The translations under genes were made by a program, and so were the position numbers. Shown piece by piece: positions 22,101 to 61,302 of a DNA stretch of 64,000 nt; positions within the stretch are counted from its first letter, which is position 1; each line of letters opens with the position of its first letter. Origin of the DNA: Bolinopsis microptera. Its lineage: Eukaryota; Ctenophora; Tentaculata; Lobata; Bolinopsidae. The stretch lies in assembly GCF_026151205.1 (NCBI RefSeq), contig NC_087075.1:10276303-10340302 (forward strand), given 5' to 3'. Under the pieces are notes generated by a model that worked only from the letters and a program-made list of their open reading frames with translations, did no database searches and was not told the origin of the DNA.

Positions 22101-25100
22101 AAACTAGGGACGACGGTGTGTGGTTGGAAGATATATGGTGATTTAGTGAATACCTGTAAAACAATGAATGATATCATTGAATCTGTAAATGAGGACCGTG
22201 TTAAATCAATGTTTGAGGTAGTTGACCTACTGCTCATGGTTTACCACGTTAAAACACCAAACGAGGAGGAGAGACAAACATTTATTACCGCACTTGAGAA
22301 CACTTTCACCAATCCCTGCAATAATATGGTTCAAAAGATATCGAAGGAATATCTTGATATCATCACTGATGCTCTGGATTATTCTACTCTTGAGCAGTCT
22401 GATCAGCTAATAATTCTGCTCAATAAGATGAAGAGTAATGATAAGCTCACCACAAGTCATCAGAGCGTTATCATAAAACGTGATAAGTACATTACAGTAA
22501 CAGATGATGAGTACAAACACCTGTATACCTTTAAACACCCTGGTACAGGAACCTGCACAGAGACAGGTAAATGTGGTTTTATCTTGAGAGAAGCTATGTC
22601 AGACGGTAAAATTCCATTAGAACTGTGTACAAACAGTGAGGATTATACAGACACTGGAGTACATTTCCATGATATCATCTCCGCACATGACATGACGATG
22701 TATTATACTATGTCAGGACACACAGCTGCTGGTAACAAAGTAACTGTGGTAGGTGTGTGGAAGTGGCAGAAGAAATGGTTACCTGACATTACAGACTGGA
22801 AGTTTGTAGAGAATTATATAGCTTACAATGTTACTGATTTTATGGTTGCTAAATAGGACTATAATACTGGCATGATCAGCGGAACGTTACGTTGAAAACT
22901 TTGTTTCTAAAAAGATTCACAGGCCCACATCCAGATATATATATATATATATTTCCTCCCAGATGCGTCCGGAGCCCCTTGGCGGGGGCTAGGGGGGCGC
23001 AGCGAAATAGGGTGTTTTAGACGACATTTGGCATTAAAGAAATTTGTAGGACAGCAATAAACTGGGATTGAAAAGAATCAATTACTCACGTAAATTTGGT
23101 AACCTCACAACAGCAATCTGCATTCTCCAATCAGAATATTTCACTGTGTTCCAAAACTGACATGATGTTCCTCTATGATTTTTATACAATCGAAAAGTTT
23201 TCTTCAAAAATTTCCTCAATTGATTTGTCTTTATTCCAAAAAAAATATTTCGAAATTTAGGAGTAACTTATCAAAAATTTCCTCTTTTTCCTCCCGTTTT
23301 TTCTCCCAAAAAAATTTCCTCCCAGGCTGCCTGGCAAGATGGCGTGTTTCTGGATGTGGGCTGACAGGGGGGAGTTTCCAATGGTGAAAAATGGCGAATG
23401 ATTTTTATGGTGAATTGAGTACCAAAATTGTAAAATTTCACCATTTTCCAACATTTTTTTCGATGAGTATTTTTCATCAATAAACTTTCAAATTGTTACA
23501 CAAATACATCATTTTATTTCAAAGAAAATATCGCCGAATGACCTTACATGCCTTGACAAGTGACCGAGTGTAAACAAAATTAGGGACACCGAAACACCAG
23601 TTGACCAGTAAACTGATCATAGCAATTATATCGGGCCCTATATGCACCTATAAGTGAAGCGATGCTGCAACCAAGGCATGCTAGGTTTATTCCATTGAAC
23701 TAATAAGGTTACAGCCTAAAATATAAATATGATAAATAACAATGTACCATAAATCATAATTATAAACACACTTTATTGAACATAGTTTATTAATTATACT
23801 TTTTATCAATTTATATGAAATTGTACTGAGGTGTTTACTGTTTAGTAATAGTATTGTAAAACTGCTCGAGGTTATTCATAATTCGTCTTGATAGTAAAGT
23901 ATTGTTTCGTTATTGTTATCAAAATTTGTGTGTCTGATCATCGTGAAAGTTTAGGTAAATTGTTTAACTGTCAGAAGATATATTTGCCTTCTAGTTTTAG
24001 TTTTGACCTGGTGTTATAATTCTAAAACAATATTTGGTTATTAACTCAGATATAAACATGTGTTTCGTAATTCGTTATAGTCAAAGTATTAGTATACGTT
24101 TTCCAATTCGGAAACTCGATTCACCAAAACAATCAATCACCATTTTTCATCAAAACTAGTAAACATGGTGAGAAAGATGCATTGGAACTAGTAACATTTG
24201 GTGGACATAGCGAGTAAGGTAAATCAAAACTAGTAACTTTTAGTGAACATGGCGACTTGTTCACTAAAAGTTACTCGTTAGTCGTTAGTCATGTTATGCT
24301 GATCCAGTTAGTGACGAGCTATGAAGTAATCATTCGACCTCATTAATACTGATCCTATCAATGACGAGCTATGAAGTAATCAGTGGATCTCGTCAATACT
24401 CATCCTGTCAGTGACGAGTTATGAAGAAATCAACGAAGACCTCATTAATTTCCTTGTTCCACGAAGATATTCCTCTGGTAACCAAACCCCTTCTTACTTC
24501 TGGCCATGGCCTGCTTCTGAACATACGAAGATTCGAAGACCAAGTCTACCTAAATCTGAACTTACTGACTGCACTGCATTGGAGAATGGAGAACAATCGA
24601 GAAATGATAATCAGTCCCAGGATATAATCAAAGTTCAATTTGGAATCTTTTTGTATGTATTTATACTGTGTGTAAGTTTGGTGTGACGCATTATTAATTA
24701 ATTATTATTATAGTTAAAACTTAAAGATGATATATTTTAACAGGTAAAATTCATATAATTGACGATTAAGAGCTGTAGGAATGTGTTCAGGACTCTGAAA
24801 GTGTCACACTCTTATAGCAATGGTATAAAATGGTTAACTTTAGTCAAGGTCTCATGTCTCTACGACCTTCGCTTTTGGCGCAGTGAATCTCACGCTTCAG
24901 CGCAATGCGCAACCTCCTGCAGGAACTTCCCGACATTGTAGAGACCTGAGACCTCGACTAAAGTTAACCATTTTCTACTGTTTATATTAGAGGAGCACAC
25001 ATTTAGAACTCCTTTCATACTCCTTCATGACTAAATTGACGATTTAAAGAATTTTACCTGTTAAAAATTGGTGAAAAATATGGGCGTGGCCCAAGGTGAC

Positions 25101-60829: not shown

Positions 60830-61302
60830 GGGGGGGGGTCCAAGGGGAACTTTGGGGAGTTTTGGGGAACTTTTTTTTGGGGAACTTCAGGAAACCTGGG
60901 GGACTTTCCCAAAGTTCCCCAAAAAATTATCAATGAAACAAATAATTTTGGGGAATTTTGGGGAACTTTTTTTGGGGAACTTCAGAAAGTTCCCCAAAAT
61001 TCCCCAAAGTTCCCCAAAAAAATTATCATGCCAAAAAAATTATCATGCTGCAAGTATCAACAAGTAAGTTAAGATTATACCTTATGATAACATACATGTT
61101 AACATTAATGGGTATTAATGTATATTAGAGAAATTTTGAATAATTTTGAATAATTTTGAATAATTTTGAATAATTTTGAATAATTTTGGGGAATTTTGGG
61201 GAACTTTGGGGAGTTTTGGGGAACTTTTTTTTGGGGAACTTCAGAAATCTTGGGGGACTTTCCCAAAGTTCCCCAAAGTTCCCCTTGGACCCCCCCCCCC
61301 CC
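60830..61302. mobile_element. G/C-run-capped hairpin element, 473 bp, flanked by TACGTA
   Basis: Left end: nine G then TCCAAGGGGAACTTTGGGG. Right end: CCCCAAAGTTCCCCTTGGA then 12 C. TACGTA flanks both (60824-60829 and 61303-61308). Each terminal repeat is a hairpin of GGGGAACTTT subrepeats around TTCAG(G/A)AA(A/-)(C/T)CTGGGGGACTTT in the same orientation. A short run of TTTGAATAA repeats (61135-61185) lies inside the right half. No coding sequence. It is the most compact member of the family in this window. Confidence 0.8.

Follow-up and report, generated by a model that had tools for sequence, protein, structure and literature searches.

Homopolymer-capped mobile elements with same-orientation terminal hairpins in the genome of Bolinopsis microptera

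Capped elements in the window and their terminal hairpins

The window analyzed here is a stretch of 64,000 bp of the Bolinopsis microptera genome (NC_087075.1, positions 10,276,303–10,340,302, forward strand). It contains four elements capped by G-runs and C-runs and the relic of a fifth one, which belong to five of the ten end families designated here by our own letters, A to J. The features are as follows (TSD, target site duplication):

13795–14602, no strand assigned: relic of family I, with direct hairpins at both ends, C15 at the right and no left G-run
23367–25645, no strand assigned: element 1, family H, with G6 and C13 caps and inverted tips
29642–33688, no strand assigned: element 2, family E, with G8 and C9 caps and the TSD TACATA on both flanks
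45001–45062, minus strand: paralogous empty site for the family D insertion at C1:9229308-9229784
57638–60547, no strand assigned: element 3, family G, with G7 and C7 caps and the 8-bp TSD GTACGTAA on both flanks
57955–59677, no strand assigned: inner element within element 3, with 208-bp inverted repeats (93%) built of 73-bp subrepeats
58280–58861, minus strand: 194-aa frame in the inner element of element 3
60830–61302, no strand assigned: element 4, family D, with G9 and C13 caps and the TSD TACGTA on both flanks

When all convergent pairs of G6+ and C6+ runs lying no more than 6 kb apart in the window were scored for their inner flanks, elements 1–4 took the top four places among 35 pairs (20, 17, 16, and 16 out of 20). 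The next-best pair scored 10, and the null probability of a score of at least 16 is 0.00075. The coordinates, caps and inverted tips given for these four elements in the original prediction were thereby borne out. The degraded fifth copy was recovered in its hairpins and right-hand cap but not in its left G-run, and flanking by TACGTA or TACATA, predicted for three elements, holds for elements 2 and 4 but not for element 3; no TSD is visible in the flanks of element 1. It should be mentioned that a tandem array of a 42-bp unit (33751–35352, 38 copies, 97% match), spanned by long open frames, begins about 60 bases past the right TSD of element 2.

The terminal repeats are direct in elements 1 (69 bp, 81%), 3 (113 bp, 98%) and 4 (80 bp, 96%), those of the latter two being hairpins. 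Self-folding was evaluated for 12 stretches, 10 from the window and two from the long family A element L031, and in 10 of them reached z ≤ -2.6. Thus, the predicted self-folding of the repeats was found in most cases but fails at both ends of element 1, neither of which stands out from shuffles (z -1.46 and -0.68).

To establish the orientation of the hairpins, we matched the left end against the right one in 22 two-hairpin elements of nine families (A–E and G–J). The best left-right match was in direct orientation in 21 of them, as had been predicted, and all nine families were direct, which has a probability of 0.002 under random orientation provided that the families are independent. The single exception, L035 of family C, has an inverted subrepeat match of 100 bits vs. 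94.9 bits for the direct one. The direct matches run through the hairpin and extend over 41–113 bp at 81–99%; the inverted tips comprise about 20–41 bp; in families C and J, inverted matches between subrepeats are longer than this but weaker. Low-complexity sequence resembling CTCCTCCT fills the interiors of family C elements (L035, L041, L043) as well as that of the relic.

In each of the five families compared (A–E), similarity is greater between like ends of separate copies than between the left and right ends of the same element, so the duplication of the hairpin predates each expansion; the two family B copies used in this comparison represent a segmental duplication. The like ends are 92–100% identical, and the copies are therefore young. 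The family B copies (L032 and L033) share their flanks, lie 9 kb apart and differ in a LINE insertion present in one of them, an apparent segmental duplication. Families B and F were found to include elements with one hairpin, and a one-hairpin form also fits by size in families G (134 bp) and H (108 bp).

End families and insertion sites across the genome

In the whole genome (264.65 Mb in 232 contigs, of which C1–C13 measure 15–26 Mb each), ten end families were distinguished by the sequence adjacent to the cap; family I is known as the relic at 13795–14602, and family J from one copy. Hundreds of matching ends were revealed for five of the ten families. On the minus strand, there were 221 ends of families A, D and F with at least six Gs (controls, 0 and 1) and 139 ends of family G (controls, 0); the plus-strand count of 733 for families A, D and F is inflated by overlapping matches. 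Family E has 67 ends genome-wide, 64 of which form 32 pairs, 12 of them measuring 4.9–5.2 kb, while family H has 12 distinct ends and two pairs. Convergent pairing was also found in families A/D (16 pairs on contig C1) and in family G (at least 29 pairs among the matches listed).

According to the original prediction, the elements share their architecture but not their sequence. The latter statement proved too strong, since CCAA or a similar sequence lies close to the cap in families A–H: CCAA itself is separated from it by no more than a few bases in families A, D, F, G and H, CCAC in family E, TCAC in family C, and CCAAC at one end of family B. Moreover, the ends of families A, D and F all match one motif.

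TSDs were studied in 12 family A/D copies picked regardless of their target, two being long family A copies and the other 10 coming from the 16 pairs on C1. All 12 have a TSD of 5–8 bp, which is exactly 6 bp in eight of them; the TSD TCCTCA is located in a low-complexity region, and another has an extra T and a length of 7 bp. Family G has TSDs of 8 bp, which flank element 3 as well as L056, a copy that came from the hexamer pattern search, and four of six other copies of the element 3 kind. These six were fetched out of seven other near-full-length matches; the right end of one is broken, and another is without a TSD. Thus, TSD length varies by family, being mostly 6 bp in A/D and 8 bp in G.

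Empty sites were revealed for three copies. A family D copy lies within an array of 44-bp tandem repeats, in which 25 empty units match its joined flank (five perfectly and the others with one to three mismatches) vs. 0 in the control. Two further copies have empty paralogues, one at 45001–45062 of the window and the other in L006 and L074; an apparent empty site in L099/L100 is of low complexity and was left uncounted. In both the tandem array and the paralogues the two ends had been inserted together, not independently. The originally proposed mobile system, in which one design is combined with a subrepeat specific to each family, is supported by the TSDs, the empty sites and the many paired copies.

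A fixed TACGTA/TACATA target looked convincing in pattern searches (54 matches vs. 20 for the reversed pattern; 52 vs. 8), and 17 convergent pairs, paired by eye and selected by hexamer, had matching hexamers with no mixed ones. This apparent strength results from ascertainment: only one of the 16 A/D pairs on C1 falls in the hexamer lists and 15 are absent from them. Specificity for these hexamers is thus refuted as a rule, and TACGTA/TACATA is at most a frequent target. What stays is a preference for T....A, the final A being present in all 12 TSDs and the initial T in nine. In families A, C and D, elements were inserted in either direction with respect to the target hexamer. A description of the termini as A-Gn...Cn-T with 4-bp TSDs is nearly equivalent for most copies, but copies with AGATTA and AGCTCTTA lack the right-hand T. 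Background in the pattern matches came from repeats with GATTACGTA before the G-run and from those with AATGTTTATGTAGGGGGG, in which the hexamer is internal. A separate repeat outside the capped families (L023, L064, L069, L073, L076, L081) has TACGTA followed by a G-run, with a second GATTACGTA or similar sequence inside.

Interiors of the elements and a candidate transposase

Element 2 contains LINE-like reverse transcriptase frames and has only its ends in common with another family E copy, L044 (277 and 324 bp). The latter encodes a 517-aa frame (L044:4167-5720) that is open in many copies and gave no match above the Pfam cut-off. Within 22 of the 32 family E pairs lie 44 of the 48 matches to this frame, and the other four are no more than 5 kb from the three unpaired ends. 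Judging from the lengths of the elements, the 5.05-kb form common in family E probably also carries the truncated LINE seen in L044. No stretch similar to L117 (see below) was present in the two family E copies read.

Copies of the inner element of element 3 have their outer ends in common at the expected distance, so it travels as cargo. We take its 194-aa frame, which has no match in Pfam or NCBIfam, to resemble the C-terminus of Mutator-like transposases. Together with the subrepeat-bearing composite ends and the 8-bp TSDs of family G, this resemblance could indicate that the whole group consists of Mutator/Foldback elements of the Tm1 kind, an explanation that we consider rather unlikely: the frame belongs to the inner element, 36 of its 40 matches on C1–C4 lie outside family G pairs, the TSDs of families A/D are 6 bp long, and L117, like the frame itself, has no Pfam match. 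Element 3 was therefore rejected for now as proof of a Mutator system.

A likely candidate for the enzyme was found in the long family A element L031, which contains a 154-aa tail frame with 13 matches at 96–100% over nearly its full length. On C1, family A ends enclose four matches of this type, including two within a single pair whose ends lie 46 kb apart. Among 18 diverged matches on C1–C4 (C4 to 10.34 Mb), the 12 with E values of 3.3e-9 or better are enclosed by family G pairs and the remaining six, with E values of 1e-6 or worse, are not; the family G pairs, at least 29 among the matches listed, span 0.08% of that sequence. The tails of families A and G are 35–54% identical to each other.

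The longest relative of the tail, L117, covers 730 aa of a 766-aa open frame, in which a finger-like N-terminus and a DPLH (DxxH) motif were read by eye. L031 aligns to its residues 487–727 at 37–43%. Comparison of L117 with Pfam, NCBIfam and PDB sequences gave no match, and a search of viral contigs revealed no relative of either L117 or the element 3 frame. Neither the 800 bp preceding L117 nor the 156 bp following it contain a cap; with a 475-aa part of L117 as the query, capped copies match only the later portion, and none of the other tail-bearing frames (about 521 aa) was placed within a capped pair. The original prediction called for a search for a long transposase-bearing member. In families A and G, long copies do hold a C-terminal portion of a single type of transposase, but a complete enzyme was not seen within any capped element.

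Proposed mechanism and comparison with known systems

The elements are real and recently mobile, odd in the design of their ends and ordinary in the outline of their mechanism. We propose, with a probability of about 0.78, that they represent families of cut-and-paste DNA transposons, mostly in the form of short non-autonomous copies, with a DxxH transposase as the likely enzyme. At each end, the G-run or C-run cap, a short sequence (CCAA or similar) and the first arm would form the true inverted tips of about 20–41 bp, and the family-specific subrepeats inward of them would fold into a hairpin. The transposase would presumably bind the tip and subrepeats, excise the element and reinsert it with a staggered cut of 6 bp in families A and D and 8 bp in family G. 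The likely enzyme is the DxxH transposase whose tail is present in the long family A and G elements and which may move them; we infer from these two families that one type of transposase could be common to all ten. A one-hairpin element may have given rise to the two-hairpin form through gap repair in which synthesis copying the hairpin from either side came to a halt at the G/C caps. Gap repair stopping at the far homopolymer would leave direct hairpins without inner caps and with filler between them. Speaking against the proposal are the lack of a complete transposase in the capped elements and of caps around L117, the six weaker tail matches outside family G pairs, the variation of TSD length among families and the different 517-aa protein of family E.

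Alternatively, structure plus a G-run might be recognized, as originally suggested: a protein would read the hairpin and the G-run, the latter perhaps in the form of a quadruplex, rather than a sequence, so that unrelated subrepeats all serve one enzyme. Ten families with one architecture and differing subrepeats are what such recognition would produce, yet the ends have a short cap-proximal sequence in common, and ordinary sequence recognition therefore suffices. Since there are also two TSD lengths, the tails of families A and G have diverged as expected if each enzyme fits its own ends, and the hairpins of element 1 are no better than shuffles, we regard recognition of structure as quite unlikely.

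Hairpins in one orientation at both ends are also characteristic of the IS200/IS605 elements, which produce no TSD and have their strand tied to the target. Single-strand mobility of this kind, prompted here by the direct hairpins in 21 of 22 elements, is hardly credible, being contradicted by real TSDs of changing sequence, empty sites, inverted tips and insertion in both target orientations in families A, C and D.

The proposed cut-and-paste transposons were further compared with described systems, in each case with the available part of the published description. Tm1 of root-knot nematodes, a Mutator/Foldback element with mostly 9-bp TSDs and a MULE transposase (PMC3169594), likewise has composite ends in which the tandem motifs vary, asymmetric outer tips and copies that are short and non-autonomous, but that part of its description mentions neither G/C homopolymer caps nor direct terminal hairpins (PMC3169594). 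As to Mutator/Foldback features in general, subrepeats are present here and the hairpins are direct, while a TSD of 8–10 bp is reached in family G but not in most A/D copies. IS3EU/GingerRoot elements, as far as described there, usually have 6-bp TSDs and TA..TA termini (PMC10045372); the former agrees with eight of the 12 A/D copies but not with family G, and the latter differ from the G-run and C-run tips, while L117 has no Pfam match of any kind and hence no integrase match. Dada transposons have 6–7 bp TSDs and a DxxH motif in the transposase, lack terminal inverted repeats and insert into small RNA genes, according to the available part of the account (PMC3706591). Both the TSD length and the motif (DPLH in L117, read by eye) are similar here, whereas the elements compared in this work have inverted tips and the 12 A/D target sites differ in sequence.

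In the part of the open-access literature covered, no description of caps combined with direct hairpins was recognized. The elements represent an unusual transposon lineage that may be unnamed. A stronger version, which we consider doubtful, is an unnamed superfamily in which a DxxH transposase acts on homopolymer-capped hairpin ends, the subrepeats are swapped while cap and fold are kept, and the direct hairpins are the footprint of repair synthesis stalled at the G/C caps. If the cut-and-paste reading is true, it adds a recently active, high-copy transposon group with unusual ends and a transposase unrecognized by the libraries searched. The direct-orientation hairpins would offer a natural test of the effects of G-runs on gap repair after excision, and in copies located within tandem arrays the insertion is directly readable.

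Two near-perfect tandem arrays were also noted in the window, at 1008–1766 (21-bp unit, 36 copies) and at 62607–63172 (94-bp unit, six copies).
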